Positions 2,166 through 11,911 of a stretch of 64,000 bases of DNA are shown here, piece after piece. The number at the start of each line of letters is the position of its first letter. The first letter of the stretch is position 1. Origin of the DNA: Myxococcota bacterium (GTDB lineage: Bacteria; Myxococcota; JAJVIH01); the NCBI GenBank assembly GCA_022072125.1, contig JAJVIH010000016.1, positions 105,205 through 169,204 on the forward strand. The letters run 5' to 3'. Below the pieces are notes generated by a model, which saw only the letters and a program-made list of their open reading frames with translations, did not search any database and was not told the origin of the DNA. The position numbers were made by a program, and so were the translations under genes.

Positions 2166-2223
2166 GGCGGGACCTTACTGCTTCCATCCGGCGGAAACTG
2201 CTGGATGATAAAACCGGACCTGA

Positions 2224-2251
2224 TTGCACATCTGTATTCCGGGCTTATATC
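2224..2251 (+). promoter_or_regulatory. Candidate sigma70-type promoter for the peptidase-cyclase pair
   Basis: TTGCAC (2224-2229) and TATATC (2246-2251) are separated by 16 bases. This would place transcription start near 2258, about 30 bases before the start codon at 2290. It suggests the two-gene unit is transcribed independently of the upstream TPR gene. Confidence 0.5.
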
Positions 2252-2289
2252 ATCAGCATAAACAGGGCCTTCGCTCCTGGAGAAACAAG

Positions 2290-2844
2290 ATGAGAAGGTA
2301 TTCCCGGGCACAGATTCGTAACACAGCGAAGGAGTTGATCACCACATACCACTTGCAGGTTCCCATTGATTTGGAATTGCTGGTGAGGGAGTTGGGGGGA
2401 GACATTCGCGATACCAATGGCACTGACGAACCAGAGGGGTATGTCAAGCTCATCAGGGAAGATCCCTCGCGGAAATTTGAAATTGGCATCAATCGCTCGC
2501 TGCCGCCAAAACGGCAAAGGTTCACTCTTGCCCACGAAATCGGTCACTATATTCTCCATTTGAAAGAACCTGATCCGGATTACATCATTGAAGGGGGGGA
2601 GATACGGGAGAAGCCCCTATTTCGCGCAGGCTGGGAGCAAATTGAATTGGAGGCCCACGAATTCGCGGGCGAACTGTTGATGCCCTACGAAGAGTTTAAT
2701 AAACAATTGAAAGAAGATCCTGAAAAGCCAATCGAAGAACGGTTGAAAGTTGTCGCGGAGCGTTTCAATGTTTCCAAACCCGCGGCCCGGGTCAGAGCAC
2801 AATGGCTGGGGTTGTATCCATGGAAAAATGATCTTCTGTCATGA
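2290..2844 (+). CDS. ImmA/IrrE-family zinc metallopeptidase
   Basis: The 184-residue protein has the family signature: HEIGH (residues 82-86, HExxH zinc site) in TLAHEIGHYILHL, then ELEAHEFAGELLMP, which supplies the third ligand (Glu121 likely) and the conserved FAxELLMP helix. I chose ATG 2290 because GGAG sits about 8 bases upstream; a TTG at 2224 would add 22 unlikely residues and overlap the candidate promoter. Family members cleave repressors or antitoxin-like proteins (ImmA on ImmR, IrrE/PprI on DdrO). There is no Xre-type DNA-binding domain here or next door; instead the stop codon overlaps the start of a nucleotidyl cyclase gene by 4 bases. Base composition is clearly more AT-rich than the flanking genes, which suggests acquisition. 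The substrate is unknown; the cyclase or an unlinked repressor are possibilities. Confidence 0.88.
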   Translation: MRRYSRAQIRNTAKELITTYHLQVPIDLELLVRELGGDIRDTNGTDEPEGYVKLIREDPSRKFEIGINRSLPPKRQRFTLAHEIGHYILHLKEPDPDYIIEGGEIREKPLFRAGWEQIELEAHEFAGELLMPYEEFNKQLKEDPEKPIEERLKVVAERFNVSKPAARVRAQWLGLYPWKNDLLS

Positions 2845-3740
2845 ATGGTGGATGGTTTCTCTTCGTATCCTATGATCTGACCAATTCCACCCAACTCAAA
2901 CAGGATAGCCCGGATTGGCCGGAGATTTTTCGCAAGTTTTATTCATTCGTGGAGTCAGACGGATCGCTCCACCTGCGTCCCTGGAAATACAATGGAGACG
3001 AGGTCATTTGCATCGGCGCAATTCCGGAAACCCCGTATATTTTTCCCTTGATTGAGCTTTGTTATTCGGTTTCAAACAAGGTCAATGATGTGCTTGGCGA
3101 ATGGCAAAAGGAGCATTTGCCCAAAAGCCGTTACCAGTTGCAATGTAAGTCCACCGCCTGGATTGGTGAATTCGGAAAAGACGCCAGTAACAAAGTCATC
3201 ACCACTTCCGCTTCCGCGCTTCCCTTCAATCAAGCACAAGCGAAGAAGGAAGACGAGAATGATGAGTTGAAATCAGAACGCGTTCCCCTCCATGACTTCA
3301 TTGGTCCAGACATGGACACCGGCTTCCGGCTGTCCAAGCACGCATTTTCCAGACCGGTCACGATTTCCGTGGATATCGCGTTGATCCTGCTGGATCTGGC
3401 GCACACATTTCAGGAGAATCCCAGATTAAAAGGTATCCCGGATCGGTTGTATCTGAGGGGTTGGGAAAGCCTCAAAGGGGTTTGGGAAAACCGCCCTTAT
3501 CCTGTTGTGTGGTATCTCGAATCCCCCGGGACATTTCTGGAGACAGCGCCTTACGAATACATTCTGCAAGACAAATGGTTCCAGGGCATGGGAACCAAAC
3601 CAGACAGCCTGTTGTTCAAAAACCATAAGGAATTGGTTGAAAAGGCCATCACGGAAACCATGGGGAAAGATTATCTTCCCGCCTTGCTGAAGAAATTCCG
3701 CATTACCGATGAATCCCTGATCAACGAGGAAGATGAATAG
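2841..3740 (+). CDS. Divergent class III nucleotidyl (adenylate/guanylate-type) cyclase
   Basis: At 299 residues, this protein carries the landmarks of the class III cyclase fold in order. They are: first metal aspartate in VSYDLTNST (Asp12); KYNGDEV with the purine-contacting Lys49 and second metal Asp53 (41 residues after Asp12, near the usual spacing); a strand resembling IGIHTGE (STAWIGEF, 104-111); DFIGPDMDTGFRLSKHA with specificity Asp152 and transition-state Arg163; and the terminal LKGV..PYPVVWY strand (211-225). The transition-state Asn, four residues before the Arg, is Asp159 here. A charged insertion (about 113-150) separates the two halves, and about 70 residues follow the domain. 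No sensor, HAMP or membrane segment is present, so it is soluble. It overlaps the peptidase gene by ATGA and must be translationally coupled. The Lys/Asp pair is the ATP-type combination in canonical enzymes, but the product is not predictable with confidence. Confidence 0.78.
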   Translation: MNGGWFLFVSYDLTNSTQLKQDSPDWPEIFRKFYSFVESDGSLHLRPWKYNGDEVICIGAIPETPYIFPLIELCYSVSNKVNDVLGEWQKEHLPKSRYQLQCKSTAWIGEFGKDASNKVITTSASALPFNQAQAKKEDENDELKSERVPLHDFIGPDMDTGFRLSKHAFSRPVTISVDIALILLDLAHTFQENPRLKGIPDRLYLRGWESLKGVWENRPYPVVWYLESPGTFLETAPYEYILQDKWFQGMGTKPDSLLFKNHKELVEKAITETMGKDYLPALLKKFRITDESLINEEDE

Positions 3741-3751
3741 GCGCCACTGTG

Positions 3752-5641
3752 ATGCGGCCGCTGGTCGAACAGAAACTTGAATCGTTGCCCGCCTCTCCGG
3801 GCGTGTACCTGATGAAGGGCGCCCGCGGCGAAATCATCTACATCGGCAAGGCCGCCAGCCTGCGCAACCGCGTACGCAGCTACTTCAACCGCGGCGGCGA
3901 TGATCGCCCTTTCGTCGCCTTGCTCGACGATCTCCTGCACGACATCGAGGTCATTCTCACCAACACGGAAAAAGAGGCCCTCCTGCTGGAGGACAGCCTC
4001 ATCAAGAAGCACCGCCCGCGCTTCAACGTGGACCTGCGGGACAACAAAAGTTTTCTGTGCCTGCGCATGGATGTGAAGCACCGCTGGCCCCGCGTGGAGG
4101 TCACCCGCCGCATCCGCAACGACGGCGCCCGGTACTTCGGCCCCTATGCATCCGCCCAGGCGGTGCGCCATACCCTGAAGCTGCTCAACCGCCATTTCCA
4201 GTTGCGCACCTGTTCCGATGGCGCGCTGACCGCCCGCAAGCGGCCCTGCCTGGAATACCACATCAAGCGTTGTCCGGCGCCCTGCGTGCTGGAGGTGGAT
4301 CACGGCGCCTACATGGAGAATGTCCGCAATGTGCTGATGTTTCTTGAAGGCCGGCACGACGAACTGGCCAACCGGCTGCGCGCGGAAATGGAGACCGCTT
4401 CGGAGGGGCTGGACTTCGAGCGGGCGGCCCGGCTGCGCGATCAGATTCACGACATCATGCGTTCGCTGGAAAAGGCCGCCACCGCGGGCACGGCCCACGC
4501 TTCCCGCGACATCATCGGCTTCGCGCGCGAGGCCGGCCGCGCCGCCATTGTGATCATGGGCGTGCGCAACGGACGCCTGCTGGAAAGCCGCCCCTGGCTG
4601 TTCCGCAACCAGGAATTTCCGGATGAAGACATTCTCTCCGGATTCCTCTGCCGGTATTACGATTCCAGCCCGGATATTCCGGATGAAGTCCTGCTGCCCA
4701 TGCCCATCGAAGACGCGGAAGTCATCGCCTCGTGGATGGGCGACCGGCGCGGCAGGAAGACCGTTATCCTGTTCCCCCAGCGGGGCGACCGCGCGAGCCT
4801 GCTGGAACTGGCCCGGAAGAACGCCCTGCACCAACTGGAGAGCGACGGCGAAAAGGCGGCGGACCGTATCGAAGCCCTGGGGCGGCTGCAGGAAGCGCTG
4901 CGCCTGCCGAAGTTCCCATCCGTTATCGAATGCTACGACATCTCCACCCTGGGTCAGACGCTTTCCGTGGGCAGCCGCGTGGTCATGCGCGACGGCGAAC
5001 CCGACAGCAACAGCTACCGGCGTTACCGCATCAAGCAGACAGACTCGACAGGCGACTTTGCCATGATGTATGAAGTCCTGAAGCGTCGTTTCCAGCGTTC
5101 GCTCGAACATGGCGAAGAGTTGCCCGATCTCGTGGTTGTTGACGGCGGGAAGGGTCAGCTCAACGTTGCTCGTGAGGTATTCCGGGAACTCGGTATCGAG
5201 GGCGTCGGGCTTGCGGGACTCGCCAAGGCGAGGGTGGACGGGCTGGACGGCGATGACGCCCCCACCCACTCTCCGGAGCGGGTATTCATCCCGGGGCGCA
5301 AGGATCCCATTGTGCTGCGGCAGAACTCGGCCGAGCTTCTGCTGTTGGCGCGCTTGCGCGATGAGGCCCATCGTTTCGCGGTCACCTACCAGCGAAAATT
5401 GCGCAAACGGGGCTTGCGCTCCGCGCTGGATGATATTCCGGGCGTCGGACCGCGCCGCAGGGCGATGCTGCTGAAACATTTCGGCAGCGTGCGCGCCCTG
5501 CGCCGGGCGACGCTGGAGGAGTTGCAGGCGGCTCCCGGTTTGCCCGGGGAACTCGCCGCGCGCATTCATGTGTTTCTGAACGCCAGAGAGGATCGTCCCG
5601 ATGAAACTGTACCCCGCCCTGATTCCGAACATCAGCCGTGA
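3752..5641 (+). CDS. uvrC: UvrABC excinuclease subunit C
   Basis: UvrC makes both incisions in nucleotide excision repair. The N-terminus is a GIY-YIG nuclease (GVYLMKGARGEIIYIGKA then RNRVRSYF). A UVR motif for UvrB contact lies near 205-240 (FERAARLRDQIHDI). The C-terminal RNase H-like nuclease has IECYDIST and DLVVVDGGKGQL, and the end is a helix-hairpin-helix pair (DDIPGVGPRRRAML). At 629 residues it is a normal full length. ATG 3752 is taken as the start; GTG 3749 is directly before it and equally possible, and neither has a strong ribosome site. It is strongly GC-rich, unlike the pair upstream. Its 3' end overlaps the DUF507 gene by 41 bases. Confidence 0.96.
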   Translation: MRPLVEQKLESLPASPGVYLMKGARGEIIYIGKAASLRNRVRSYFNRGGDDRPFVALLDDLLHDIEVILTNTEKEALLLEDSLIKKHRPRFNVDLRDNKSFLCLRMDVKHRWPRVEVTRRIRNDGARYFGPYASAQAVRHTLKLLNRHFQLRTCSDGALTARKRPCLEYHIKRCPAPCVLEVDHGAYMENVRNVLMFLEGRHDELANRLRAEMETASEGLDFERAARLRDQIHDIMRSLEKAATAGTAHASRDIIGFAREAGRAAIVIMGVRNGRLLESRPWLFRNQEFPDEDILSGFLCRYYDSSPDIPDEVLLPMPIEDAEVIASWMGDRRGRKTVILFPQRGDRASLLELARKNALHQLESDGEKAADRIEALGRLQEALRLPKFPSVIECYDISTLGQTLSVGSRVVMRDGEPDSNSYRRYRIKQTDSTGDFAMMYEVLKRRFQRSLEHGEELPDLVVVDGGKGQLNVAREVFRELGIEGVGLAGLAKARVDGLDGDDAPTHSPERVFIPGRKDPIVLRQNSAELLLLARLRDEAHRFAVTYQRKLRKRGLRSALDDIPGVGPRRRAMLLKHFGSVRALRRATLEELQAAPGLPGELAARIHVFLNAREDRPDETVPRPDSEHQP

Positions 5642-6346: not shown

Positions 6347-7120
6347 ATGTTCGACGGATTTGACAGCGCGGAAGAGAGAAGCGCGGGTTCCCGGTGGTTG
6401 GTGTCGGGAGGCGCCTCCCTGGTTGTCTATGTGGCGGTGATTGGCGCCTTCTTCTGGCTGGCGGGCGAGGCCAAGGCCAAGCTGGAAGACAAGGAAATCG
6501 AAGTCACCTTCAAAGAAGCGGTAGAAGCGCCGGAACCCGCTTCCCCGCCGCCACCTCCCCCCCCTTCCGTTCCAAAGGACATGACCGTCAAAAAAGTGGC
6601 CGCAGTGCGCGCGCCCACGCCGATGACCGAGCCGCAGGATATCCCCAAGGGCAAACTGGAAGAGGCCGAACCCACCTCCGCTCCGGTGGTGGAAGTGCAG
6701 GAAGCCGCGCCGGGTTCTGATTCCGGCAACGCCGCCGTGATTCCCGCCGCCGCCGCCGCTCCTGAACCGGTCCCGGCCCCCGCCGCTCCCCCCGCTCCAC
6801 CCCCGCCGCCCGTCCCCAAACGCAGCGATCCCATCAATCTGCCGGAGGACGCCGATCCGCCAGAGCCCGACAGCTCCAATGAAATGCCGGCCTACCCGGA
6901 AGAAGCCCGTTCCAGCGGCCTGGAGGACATGGTGATCCTCAAGATCGTGGTTACCGAAAAGGGCGGTGTGGGATCGGTCCAGGTGCTCAAGGGCAAGGAG
7001 CCTTTTGTTGGGGTGGCCGTGGCCGCCGTGAAGAAATGGAAATTCACCCCCGCCATGGTGGATGGGGAGCCCGCCGCGGTGTTCCGCGTCATCAAACTGC
7101 CTTTCCGCCTTCGCAACTGA
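6347..7120 (+). CDS. tonB: TonB energy-transducing protein
   Basis: A 257-residue inner-membrane-anchored protein that couples ExbB-ExbD proton-motive energy to outer-membrane receptors. It has one N-terminal membrane segment (about residues 20-40), a long Pro/Ala/Glu-rich periplasmic spanner (including a run of prolines at about 68-76 and another before VPKRSDPINL), and a typical C-terminal domain. That domain has YPEEARSSGLEDMVILKIVV, VGSVQVLKG and AVAAVKKWKFTPAMVDGEP. It is the first gene of a module followed after a short gap by exbB, two exbD genes and a receptor, so it most likely serves that receptor. Confidence 0.93.
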   Translation: MFDGFDSAEERSAGSRWLVSGGASLVVYVAVIGAFFWLAGEAKAKLEDKEIEVTFKEAVEAPEPASPPPPPPPSVPKDMTVKKVAAVRAPTPMTEPQDIPKGKLEEAEPTSAPVVEVQEAAPGSDSGNAAVIPAAAAAPEPVPAPAAPPAPPPPPVPKRSDPINLPEDADPPEPDSSNEMPAYPEEARSSGLEDMVILKIVVTEKGGVGSVQVLKGKEPFVGVAVAAVKKWKFTPAMVDGEPAAVFRVIKLPFRLRN

Positions 7121-7139
7121 CCATCCTCAGGAGACCCTT

Positions 7140-7857
7140 ATGCATATCGATCTGGTCAAGATTTTTCAGGACATGGACCTCTTCGCCAAGTCCATTGTCT
7201 TTGTGCTGGCGGCCATGGCGCTGGCGTCGCTGACGGTGTGCATCGAGCGGTTGTGGGTGTTCCGCCGCACCCGTTTCCGCGCGCGGGAGTTTGGCGCGGC
7301 CGCATCGCAATTGCTGAAGGGCGGACAATACGGAGAACTGGAAACCAAGGCGAAGGATCAGAAAGACAACCCTCTGGCCGACCTGCTGGGCGCGGGCATC
7401 GGGGTCTATCTGAATGTTCCCCACGCCGAAGCGGACAAGGCCGAGGCGTTGGACCTGGTGGAGCGCGAACTGGCGCGCAAGCGCGAAGCCCAGTCGGCGC
7501 GCCTGCGCAGGGGCCTGGGCGTGCTCGCGTCGGTCGGCTCGGTCGCTCCTTTCGTCGGCCTGCTGGGCACGGTGGTGGGCATCATCGCCTCATTTGAGAG
7601 CATCGCCACGGAAGGCTCCGGGGGTCTGGGCGTGGTTTCCGCGGGCATCGCCGAGGCGCTCGTGGTGACGGCGCTGGGCCTGGTGGTCGCCATCCCCGCC
7701 GTGCTGATTTTCAACGGCCTGACCGCCATGGCGGACTCGATTCTGCTGGCCCTCGACCACGCCGCCGGGGAGTTCGTGGATCACCTCAAGGCCGCGCATG
7801 GCGTCAAACTCGCGCCGGTCTCCCCCATCCGCAAAGAGACCGAGGTCAAGAACAACA

Positions 7858-7868
<11 letters not shown>
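7140..7868 (+). CDS. exbB: ExbB/TolQ-type proton channel subunit
   Basis: A 242-residue MotA/TolQ/ExbB family protein. ATG 7140 has AGGAG 8-9 bases upstream; the longer frame from 7062 would overlap tonB. There is an N-terminal membrane helix (about 15-38) and the conserved pair of helices with GLGVLASVGSVAPFVGLLGTVVGI and EALVVTALGLVVAIPAVLIFN. The GLLGTV and GI(A)EAL signatures are diagnostic. It overlaps the first exbD by 11 bases. Context with tonB and a receptor favours ExbB over TolQ. Confidence 0.93.
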
Positions 7869-8277
<409 letters not shown>

Positions 8278-8283
8278 CGGATC

Positions 8284-8712
8284 ATGGCGTTTGATGTGGG
8301 CGGTTCAAAGGAAGGCGTTCGTCCCTCCATCAATGTCACGCCGCTGGTGGACGTGGTGCTGGTGCTTCTGATCATTTTCATGGTCATCACGCCGCTGCTC
8401 TCCAAGCAGTTCTATCTGCACACCGCCAAAAAAGACGAGAACAAGGATCCCCCCGCCCAAAATGATCCCAAGCCGCCGGTGGTGCTGACCGCCCGCGCCG
8501 GCGGGGCGTACCTGAACGCGGACAAGATTCCCCTGGAAGAACTGGGAGACAAGCTGCGCCGCGTCTTCGCGGCCCGCAACGAATACATGCTTTTTTTCGC
8601 CGCCGAAGATGATGTTCCGTTCGGCGAGGCGATGAAGATCATGGACGCCGCCCGCGGCGGCGGAGCCCTGACCATCGCGGTCGTCACCGATCCCCCGAAG
8701 CCGTCACCGTAA
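8284..8712 (+). CDS. exbD: ExbD/TolR-type subunit, copy 2
   Basis: A 142-residue paralogue of the gene immediately upstream (6 bases apart) with the same INVTPLVDVVLVLLIIFMVI helix and catalytic Asp. Its periplasmic part is different (HTAKKDENKDPPAQND linker, then a short domain with MLFFAAEDDVPFGEAMKIMD). The almost identical membrane helix but divergent periplasmic domain suggests a duplication with specialised partners. It closes the tonB-exbB-exbD-exbD block before the receptor gene. Confidence 0.92.
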   Translation: MAFDVGGSKEGVRPSINVTPLVDVVLVLLIIFMVITPLLSKQFYLHTAKKDENKDPPAQNDPKPPVVLTARAGGAYLNADKIPLEELGDKLRRVFAARNEYMLFFAAEDDVPFGEAMKIMDAARGGGALTIAVVTDPPKPSP

Positions 8713-8794
8713 ATTCACGGCCCCGGCTCAATTCGTCACCTGAACCACACACAAACGGCGCGCCACGTCTGAATAAGGCGGGCGCGATTTGGCC

Positions 8795-11700
8795 ATGCAC
8801 AAGACCGTCCTCACCCGTTGTCTGTCCGCCATTGGCGCCGCCACGCTGATATGCCTCGCCATGGGCGCGAACGCCCAGGACGCCAAGCCAACCGCGCCGC
8901 CGCGGGCGGCGACAACCACGGCCGCCGCCGCTCCTTCTGAAACCGCCCCCGTCCCGCGCGGCGCGGACACGGACTATATCGTGTCGCCCGCGGAACTGGT
9001 GATGCCGCCTTCCATGGTGCGAAGCAGCGCAACCCCCAGCGCATTCGTCATGCCAGGCGAAGGAGCCGGGTCTTCCGCCAGCCCGCCGGGCGGTGTCACG
9101 CCCGTGGCGGCGGACGCCATCCCCTCCAGCATGGCGGCGGAAAGCTCCCCCGCGACCGCGGCGCCCATCGCCGCGCCGAAGGGAAAAACCAAGGGCAAAG
9201 CCTTCACCGGCATTCAGGGGGTGGTGAGCGACGCCAAAACCGGCGAACCGCTGATCGAGGCCACGGTCAAGGTGATCAAGGGAGGCAAAGGCTCCGCCCA
9301 GACCGGCGTGGACGGCAAATACAAGCTCAAACTGCCGCCGGGGGATTACGATCTGCGCGTCTTCTACGAGATGTACAAGGGCCGCCAGATCAAGGGCGTC
9401 AACGTCGGCAAGGGTGCGCCCGTGGTGGTGGATGTCCAACTGGAAGCCGACTCCAGCGCGGTGCAGGAAGTGGTGGTCGAAGCCAAAGCCGACAAACGCA
9501 CCGAGGCGGCCATTTTGCAGGAGCGGCGCAAGGCGCCCGTGGTGGCGGACACCATCAGCGCGCAGGAGATGGCGCGCACTCCCGACAACAGCGCCTCCGA
9601 TGCGGTCAAGCGCGTGGTGTCGGTGACGGTGGTCAATGATCGCTACGTGGTGCTGCGCGGCCTCGGCGGACGTTATTCCCAGACCCTGTTGAACAACGTC
9701 TTCCTGCCCAGCCCGGAGCCGGACGAGCCGCAGACCCCGCTCGATCTGTTCCCCACCAACCTGTTGTCCAACATGCAGGTGGCCAAGACTTACGCCGCCG
9801 ACCTGCCGGGAACCTTCGGCGGCGGCACGCTGTTGATCGAAACCAACACCTATCCCTCCGATTTTGAACTGAAGCTCAAGCTCTCGGTTTCGGGCGACGA
9901 GCAGACGACCTTTCGCGGCGACAAGAAATCCTACGAAGGCGGCAGTCTGGACTGGCTGGGATGGGATGACGGCGGGCGCGGCCTGCCCGATGCGGTCCCT
10001 GGTGATCGCCCGGTGGATAGCGAAAAACTCGACCCCGCCGAACAGGAGAAGATCGGCGAATCCTTCCGGCGGACGTGGAGCGCCCGCGACACCACCGGCA
10101 TGCCCAACCTGAGTTTCAACGCCACCGCGGGCGACACCATTCCGCTGGGCGGCGTGAAGCTGGGGTATATCGGCAGCCTGACCTTCAACCGCCGCGAGGA
10201 AAACCAGCGATCGTATATCGCCATCGCCAAAATTGACGGGGAAGGGGATCAGGCCCAGGTCAAGCTGCGGGAAAGCGCGACCAGCAAGCGCGGAACCGAC
10301 AACACCACGGTCAGCGGCCTCGCCAACGTGGGGCTTCAGTTCAACCAGAACCACGATGTCAACGCGCTCCTGCTATACACCCACAACGGCGAAAACCAGG
10401 CGGAGTTCATCCGCGGCTATAACGAAACCGACTCGCAGGATTTTGAATCCACCCGCCTGCGGTTCATCTCGCGCGAACTGACCTTCAGCCAGCTTGCGGG
10501 CTTCCACCGCTTCACCCCGGCGGGCAGGCTGGAGTTGCGCTGGCAGGCCAACCTCGCGCTGACGGGGCGCGGCGAGCCCGACACCCGCGACATCGCCCAC
10601 AACGTGGTCCCCGATCTGGAGAACAACACCGAGAGCCTGCGTTTCAAGACCGGCCAGGGCAGCGCCGAGCGCTTCTTCTCGCGCTTGCGCGACACCACGG
10701 CGGGCGGCGGTCTGGGCTTCACGCTTCCGGTGGACAAACTGCAAATCAAATGGGGCGGCGCGCTGCAAAATTCCTCGCGCGATTTCGCGGCGCGGCGTTT
10801 TCGCTATGACATCCTCGCGCGCCGGACCGATCCCGCCGTGCTCTTCCTCAAGCCGGAGGAGATGCTTTCCAACGAGAATATCGGCCCCAATTTCGTGCTG
10901 GAAGAGCGCACCCTGCCCGAGGACGCCTACAAGGCCGGCCTGCTGGTGGCGGCGGGCTACGCCGCGGTGGACATCAACTACCTGGACCCGGTGCGGCTGA
11001 TTCCCGGCGTGCGCTATGAATACGCCAACCAGACGCTGAATCCGGGATCGCCCTTCGCCACCTCCGCCACTCCGCCAACAGGCGTGGATCGCACCGATTC
11101 CGACCTGCTGCCGGCCATGAACGCGGTCTGGGCCATCCGCGACGACCTGAACCTGCGCGCGGCCTACAGCTACACGCTGGTTCGTCCGCAGTTCCGCGAA
11201 CTGGCGCCCTTCCTGTATTTCGACTTCACCCGCCGCCGCCAGACCAGCGGCAACCCCAACCTGGACCGCTCGCGCATCCACAACGGCGATCTGCGTCTGG
11301 AGTGGTTCCCCAGCGGCAAGGAAGTGCTGGCCGCCAGCGGATTCATCAAGCGCTTTGAAAAACCCATCGAGCGTACGGTGGTGGGCGCCAACGGCGATGT
11401 CAGCTTCGCCAACGCCGAGGGCGCGCTCGCCGGAGGAGGAGAAATCGAGGGCCGTCTCTCGCTCTCGCGCATCACTCCGGCGCTGGAAGGCCTGCGCCTG
11501 GGCGCGAACGTCGCCTGGATCCATTCCAGCGTGGATTTGACCCGGCAGCAGGCCGCCATCTCGACCAGCCGGGAGCGTCCGCTCCAGGGACAATCACCCT
11601 ACGTCATCAATGGCGGGCTGACTTACGATCTGGAAAGCATCGGGCTCTCCACCGCGCTGCTCTACAACGTCTCCGGCGCGCGCATCGCCGACGTTGGTTT

Positions 11701-11911
11701 CGACAAACTGCCGGACATTTACGAACAGCCGATCCACCGGCTCGACGCCACGGTGTCCAAGACCTTGCCCGCGGGGTTCCGCGTCAAATTTGCGGCCGCC
11801 AATATCCTCAACGAGGACTTCGTCCTCACGCAGGGAGACCTGGTGGTGCAGCAATACCTCCCCGGCGTCAATCTTTCGTTGTCGCTGGAATGGAGTCCTC
11901 AACAACCATAA
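8795..11911 (+). CDS. TonB-dependent outer-membrane receptor with carboxypeptidase-regulatory-like domain
   Basis: At 1038 residues, it has a signal peptide (MHKTVLTRCLSAIGAATLIC..GANA). ATG 8795 is preferred over the TTG two codons earlier. Next come an Ala/Pro-rich low-complexity stretch, a CarboxypepD_reg-like beta domain (GIQGVVSDAKTGEPLIEATV..TGVDGKYKLKLPPGDYDL), a plug (VVADTISAQEMARTPDNSASDAVKRV..VLRGLGGRYSQTLLNNV) and a long barrel. The C-terminus (LSLSLEWSPQQP) does not end in the usual aromatic residue. The plug lacks an obvious substrate signature. Its location after tonB/exb genes and before a surface-type lipoprotein gene suggests a dedicated uptake system; I saw no convincing Fur box upstream, so the substrate is open. 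Confidence 0.92.
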   Translation: MHKTVLTRCLSAIGAATLICLAMGANAQDAKPTAPPRAATTTAAAAPSETAPVPRGADTDYIVSPAELVMPPSMVRSSATPSAFVMPGEGAGSSASPPGGVTPVAADAIPSSMAAESSPATAAPIAAPKGKTKGKAFTGIQGVVSDAKTGEPLIEATVKVIKGGKGSAQTGVDGKYKLKLPPGDYDLRVFYEMYKGRQIKGVNVGKGAPVVVDVQLEADSSAVQEVVVEAKADKRTEAAILQERRKAPVVADTISAQEMARTPDNSASDAVKRVVSVTVVNDRYVVLRGLGGRYSQTLLNNVFLPSPEPDEPQTPLDLFPTNLLSNMQVAKTYAADLPGTFGGGTLLIETNTYPSDFELKLKLSVSGDEQTTFRGDKKSYEGGSLDWLGWDDGGRGLPDAVPGDRPVDSEKLDPAEQEKIGESFRRTWSARDTTGMPNLSFNATAGDTIPLGGVKLGYIGSLTFNRREENQRSYIAIAKIDGEGDQAQVKLRESATSKRGTDNTTVSGLANVGLQFNQNHDVNALLLYTHNGENQAEFIRGYNETDSQDFESTRLRFISRELTFSQLAGFHRFTPAGRLELRWQANLALTGRGEPDTRDIAHNVVPDLENNTESLRFKTGQGSAERFFSRLRDTTAGGGLGFTLPVDKLQIKWGGALQNSSRDFAARRFRYDILARRTDPAVLFLKPEEMLSNENIGPNFVLEERTLPEDAYKAGLLVAAGYAAVDINYLDPVRLIPGVRYEYANQTLNPGSPFATSATPPTGVDRTDSDLLPAMNAVWAIRDDLNLRAAYSYTLVRPQFRELAPFLYFDFTRRRQTSGNPNLDRSRIHNGDLRLEWFPSGKEVLAASGFIKRFEKPIERTVVGANGDVSFANAEGALAGGGEIEGRLSLSRITPALEGLRLGANVAWIHSSVDLTRQQAAISTSRERPLQGQSPYVINGGLTYDLESIGLSTALLYNVSGARIADVGFDKLPDIYEQPIHRLDATVSKTLPAGFRVKFAAANILNEDFVLTQGDLVVQQYLPGVNLSLSLEWSPQQP

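Follow-up and report, generated by a model that had tools for sequence, protein, structure and literature searches.

The gene pair analysed here, a metallopeptidase gene followed directly by a cyclase gene, shares parts with several described systems. Pycsar, which comprises PycC and PycTM or PycTIR, has the same class III cyclase fold and metal-binding Asp pair, and a PycTM effector directly adjoins many relatives of our pair. However, the pair adds an M78 peptidase, many relatives add a fused degenerate Nudix domain, and the copy in the window (the whole 64-kb stretch of DNA that was analysed) has an Asp at the transition-state Asn position of its cyclase and lacks an effector. The Pycsar cyclase models of PADLOC matched neither the window cyclase nor any of 66 relatives; other PADLOC models matched cyclases only here and there. 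As no PycTM or PycTIR gene adjoins the window copy, we do not file it as Pycsar.

On the peptidase side, CapP of the CapH/CapP system is the nearest solved structure, and IrrE/DdrO and ImmA/ImmR likewise contain an M78 metallopeptidase with an HExxH motif. The window pair nevertheless falls outside CapH/CapP: it has neither an adjoining HTH repressor gene of the CapH kind nor the C-terminal sensor region, and its type of peptidase is fixed to one cyclase family. Compared with IrrE and ImmA, the window peptidase is shorter and is partnered by a cyclase instead of an HTH repressor. The cyclases CyaC, CyaB and Rv1900c share with the window protein the fold, the metal Asp pair, the Lys/Asp base-recognition pair, Arg163 and the LKG hairpin. 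Identity is nevertheless only ∼12%, Asn is replaced by Asp159, the window protein has a long disordered loop, and Pfam is blind to it.

ORF1/ORF2 of phage LE1 and p41/p42 of the Clostridioides difficile phage phiC2 are members of the same peptidase-cyclase family, and the phiC2 record already describes its pair as similar to LE1 ORF 1/2. In these records the cyclase is a hypothetical protein and the peptidase a regulator or metallo-protease; neither the identity of the cyclase nor the PycTM link is mentioned. The earlier note knew of no characterised system of this form. In agreement with this, none is annotated in PADLOC, and in the open-access literature searched we came across no description of the pair.

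Organisation of the locus

The pair lies on the plus strand between a TPR-type gene and uvrC:

27-2165: TPR-type gene, 5' neighbour of the low-G+C island
2166-3740, no strand: low-G+C island, probably acquired (G+C 0.49 against 0.637 ± 0.030; family not found in the other 194 genomes of the phylum sample)
2290-2844, plus strand: M78 (ImmA/IrrE-type) metallopeptidase gene, 184 aa (Pfam PF06114, PADLOC capP, conserved residues)
2841-2844, plus strand: ATGA shared by the peptidase stop and the cyclase start (seen in the sequence; most paired relatives have short overlaps or gaps)
2841-3740, plus strand: divergent class III nucleotidyl cyclase gene, 299 aa (AF2 model, Foldseek, residue conservation)
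3749-5641: uvrC, 3' neighbour of the cyclase gene

The peptidase stop codon (2842-2844) overlaps the cyclase ATG (2841) in the ATGA that had been pointed out before, and the two genes are likely translationally coupled through it. The peptidase had been read from a TTG at 2224. Its likely start is instead the ATG at 2290, which is preceded by GGAGAA, a ribosome-binding-like sequence. The TTGCAC-N16-TATATC site, put forward as the pair's own promoter-like site, is present at 2224, but we rejected it as promoter evidence because such sites occur in the region at chance frequency (2 found against 1.5 ± 1.2 expected).

The low G+C content, previously noted from single lines of sequence, holds for the pair as a whole. 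At 49.0%, it is the minimum among 1451-nt windows of the 64-kb sequence (mean 63.7%, s.d. 3.0), and the island at 2166-3740 was probably acquired.

The gene at 27-2165 is large and Pro/Ala-rich. It contains a block that is repeated ('...PGEVTRMFDTMR...PPPVMVTRSATGESHVAA'), a single membrane segment and, at the C-terminus, a TPR-like part. Shortly 3' of uvrC, positions 6347-11911 hold a single run of TonB-, ExbB- and two ExbD-like genes and one TonB-dependent receptor-like gene, whose identities were judged from translations alone.

The peptidase and the cyclase

The peptidase matches Pfam PF06114 (M78) at 6.2e-20, above the curated cut-off, and the PADLOC capP model at 1.7e-29 over profile positions 3-154 of 242. 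The HEIGH motif recognised in the earlier note provides His82, Glu83 and His86 of the zinc site, and Glu119 follows in the next helix; these four residues are kept in 52-53 of 53 relatives. With the PF06114 match, the HExxH motif and the downstream Glu ligand all present, the gene at 2290-2844 is, by sequence, an intact M78/ImmA-IrrE peptidase. Among the paired loci, L066:7339-7938 is the sole peptidase with a degraded zinc motif (QMLGH for HELGH).

The nearest solved structures are CapP (7t5t, 1e-16) and IrrE (3dte). Both matches stop at residue ∼177-179 of ∼291-301 (177 of 291 for 7t5t), and the 184-aa protein ends directly behind the peptidase domain, so that the C-terminal region found in IrrE and CapP is missing. 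The window peptidase is therefore a bare peptidase domain.

The cyclase protein has no significant sequence match in Pfam, NCBIfam, PADLOC or the PDB, the last searched with both the single sequence and a profile. An AF2 model built from an alignment of 66 sequences (pLDDT 85, pTM 0.85) did recover the cyclase fold. Its best Foldseek matches are all class III cyclases (E ∼1e-8, target TM mostly 0.6-0.8), among them CyaC, CyaB and mammalian and mycobacterial enzymes. It is by this predicted structure only that the earlier identification as a cyclase stands. On the model, the protein at 2841-3740 belongs to the class III nucleotidyl cyclase fold, with putative catalysis.

Asp12, Lys49, Asp53, Asp152 and Arg163 are all at the positions given before. 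The metal-binding Asp12 and Asp53 as well as Arg163 are invariant across 96 aligned relatives, and the LKG hairpin (211-213) is nearly so; a disordered loop spans ∼125-146. Asp159, which had been missed, stands at the transition-state Asn position. Class III enzymes normally have Asn there. Nearly every member with a readable motif has the Asp, as do the HMM-sampled genomes (see below) wherever the motif is readable, conservation around residues 152-161 being inflated in the genome-contig set, which was picked by a motif pattern in that stretch. Since Arg163 is present but the Asn of the transition-state pair is replaced, we file the cyclase under the fold superfamily only and treat its activity as putative. 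Lys49 and Asp152 look adenylyl-like and move jointly to Arg/Glu in some Clostridia, though base choice is not safely readable from such residues.

Distribution and pairing

With tblastn, we recovered relatives from Leptospira plasmids, phage LE1, the C. difficile phages phiC2 and phiCD27, and Tistrella pTM3; every copy inspected has an M78 gene immediately upstream. A cyclase copy on a Sphingomonas plasmid has no M78 gene upstream. Pattern-plus-tblastn scans yielded 80 loci from genome contigs and 53 from viral contigs (IMG/VR). The former come from Spirochaetota, Bacillota, Pseudomonadota, deltaproteobacterial lineages, Verrucomicrobiota, Planctomycetota, Actinomycetota, Aminicenantes and Mycoplasmataceae. 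Scanning the viral contigs with a single sequence returned no relatives; these were found with an alignment query.

The earlier note had proposed that conserved adjacency be checked across genomes. Among 99 loci that are non-redundant at 85%, 75 have the peptidase gene immediately 5' of the cyclase gene and on the same strand; at most paired loci, the two genes overlap slightly or are separated by a few bases. Since a motif had been used to choose the genome contigs, we repeated the search over sampled genomes with an HMM, which was itself built from the motif-chosen set. Strong matches (E < 1e-10) were obtained in 4 of 295 genomes of Lachnospirales, 12 of 393 of Spirochaetota, 22 of 399 of Pseudomonadota and 1 of 399 of the phylum of the Bacillus locus L016, these counts including the genome on which each sample was centred. 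In the window's own phylum the count is 1 of 195, namely the window's genome, and the family was not found in the other 194. With 26 of 34 strong loci in the sampled genomes paired as well, homologues are usually adjacent.

The window's 4-Mb genome contains only two M78 genes in total, so chance adjacency is negligible. The second one (L199, G000:C1:16012-16317) does not adjoin a cyclase of the same family. Peptidase and cyclase trees mirror each other (mirror-tree r = 0.87; none of 1000 permutations reached this value, the permuted maximum being 0.09), and the two genes have therefore been inherited as a unit. These observations support the pair as a genuine conserved two-gene unit that is horizontally mobile.

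PycTM and Nudix domains in relatives

A PycTM-like gene adjoins the unit at 22 of the 99 loci, all of them paired. It lies downstream in Clostridia, upstream in Bacilli and convergent in phiC2, and encodes ∼150-190 aa with mostly two or three predicted membrane segments. Pfam PycTM matches phiC2 p40 at 3e-12 and the protein at locus L130 at 1e-9, and all ten PycTM-like proteins tested match PADLOC PycTM or CBASS 2TM-effector models. The cyclase tree divides into two main clades. Every Nudix fusion and 21 of the 22 PycTM loci fall in one of these (support 0.99, 40 members), whose deepest branch is the window copy. As L130 falls in the other main clade, the PycTM link appears at least twice. No PycTM gene adjoins the window pair or occurs anywhere in its genome (96% complete). 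The link to Pycsar-type signalling, as suggested in the earlier note, thus holds through the neighbours of 22 relatives, whereas the nucleotide-activated effector is missing at the window copy.

In ∼29 cyclases of the window copy's clade, a degenerate Nudix domain is fused to the C-terminus. It reaches Pfam NUDIX at 3e-6, and its Nudix box lacks most of the catalytic REUxEE pattern, which suggests a domain that binds rather than hydrolyses. At L049:8748-9275, a Nudix-like domain without a Pfam match is apparently a separate gene behind a short cyclase.

Neighbouring genes and peptidase-free copies

Around paired loci, we recorded genes for type I restriction specificity subunits, BREX-type ATPases, integrases, resolvases and phage repressors (as occurrences only). 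Two families of unknown function, phrog_5982 and phrog_20458, recur 6-7 times among these neighbours. A second ImmA-like peptidase gene lies downstream of the unit at L018:2583-3101 (Halobacillus) and L095:9433-9915 (a viral contig).

About a quarter of the cyclase relatives are solo, mainly in one derived alphaproteobacterial chromosomal clade. Their conserved neighbours encode a SpoIIE phosphatase, an MFS-HEAT protein and a HAMP protein, with a Crp-type gene at the Sphingomonas locus, and this clade possibly represents an ordinary cyclic-nucleotide pathway. The family is thus usable without the peptidase. We rejected the reading of the Sphingomonas and Phenylobacterium copies as broken pairs because they form a coherent derived clade. 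The peptidase-free Sphingomonadales/Caulobacterales clade includes L003, L020, L027, L033 and L040. Three Mycoplasmataceae cyclases (L032, L046, L083) are also without a peptidase, and are intact only with TGA read as Trp.

Possible modes of action

The pair may be a horizontally transmitted, Pycsar-like second-messenger module whose peptidase most likely sets the activity of the cyclase, a reading to which we give an even chance. It builds on the domain identities, the predicted cyclase fold, pairing and gene order, co-inheritance, mobility and the PycTM/Nudix linkage in relatives. From these we infer catalytic activity, the identity of the messenger, the trigger, the direction of control and a role in defence. 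The trigger would probably be infection, prophage induction or a stress of a related kind, upon which the cyclase would convert a nucleoside triphosphate into a cyclic nucleotide. The co-translated M78 peptidase, lacking the sensor region of IrrE and CapP, would work with the cyclase and most likely set its activity through cleavage of the cyclase itself, of an inhibitor or of some other protein of the cell. The messenger would then, in many Bacillota versions, open the adjoining PycTM membrane effector. Where the unit consists of the two genes only, as in the window, the output would be the peptidase itself or an unlinked receptor.

The earlier note had allowed for control in either direction, with a nucleotide signal acting on the protease or the peptidase releasing a cyclase or repressor. 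The two-gene unit is real, and the PycTM loci, which keep the peptidase despite having an effector, favour the peptidase as controller and not as sole output. A sensorless peptidase found at PycTM and bare loci alike, directly 5' of the cyclase, is most economically explained as a cyclase-controlling partner. Against the Pycsar-like module count the absence of PycTM from the window's genome, the failure of Pycsar models to recognise the cyclases and the solo quarter of relatives.

A physical arrangement of the two proteins was modelled with the pair of locus L128 as an in-frame read-through. Here, the single stop codon was translated as Gln for the sake of modelling only, and no read-through is claimed. 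The model (pLDDT 90, pTM 0.76; the short linker forces proximity, and there is no control or PAE) hints at a defined peptidase-cyclase arrangement. In Foldseek, the best matches of the read-through pair were only cyclases, with no joint match. A further, tentative reading, which we regard as improbable, joins the parts more closely. Protease and class III-like cyclase would form one physical switch and a new class of bacterial and phage immunity. The cyclic nucleotide, possibly made with the unusual active-site Asp, would gate proteolysis or be gated by it, and would be read by the catalytically dead Nudix domain or the PycTM pore, while the bare two-gene form would act through the protease alone.

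Possible but doubtful is a messenger-gated protease effector, in which sensing falls to the cyclase, and the peptidase is activated by the cyclase product or by the cyclase protein. The active peptidase would kill or arrest the cell or cleave a regulator, with PycTM, where it occurs, as an added second effector. This fits the bare loci better than a peptidase acting as controller. The window, Leptospira and most proteobacterial units hold just two genes, and since the window's genome lacks PycTM, no linked output other than the peptidase is left there; the catalytic residues of the peptidase are kept in 52 of 53 relatives. However, a peptidase of 184 aa has no extra ligand-binding domain, its substrate is only putative, and loci already equipped with PycTM still keep it.

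It is unlikely, in our view, that the pair is a lysogeny regulator that tunes induction or superinfection immunity of mobile elements, with the chromosomal copy as a remnant. ImmA-type peptidases are known to derepress mobile elements. The pair sits in the annotated immunity region of LE1, near regulators in phiC2, on Leptospira plasmids and on the 53 IMG/VR contigs. Yet many copies are chromosomal, no phage or integrase gene adjoins the window pair, and the PycTM and restriction genes that accompany relatives speak for killing or defence.

Less likely again is a CapP-like control, in which the peptidase responds to DNA damage or infection by cleaving a DNA-binding repressor, thereby switching on the cyclase operon, and the adjacency is regulatory only. 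The closeness to CapP 7t5t and the PADLOC capP match speak for this, but CapP's C-terminal region is absent from the window peptidase. In addition, the window has no CapH-like HTH gene, and HTH matches occur in only ∼3 of 100 small upstream ORFs of relatives. Unlike CapHP, which serves many kinds of operon, the peptidase hardly varies in its order and overlap with the cyclase. Finally, a non-functional acquired remnant or mere chance neighbours, as the single copy in the phylum sample and the missing linked effector might suggest, are highly improbable given that both frames are open, all invariant residues are intact and adjacency is conserved across phyla.

Taken together, the window pair in all likelihood works like a Pycsar-type signalling module with an added peptidase, and probably forms an uncharacterised Pycsar-like bacterial alarm system. 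Its cyclase defines a family that goes unrecognised by Pfam, NCBIfam and PADLOC. If the proposal is true, second-messenger synthesis and regulated proteolysis, so far separate themes in the immunity of bacteria, would be joined in one mobile unit, which offers a testable function for hypothetical genes of the temperate phages LE1, phiC2 and phiCD27 and of Leptospira plasmids.
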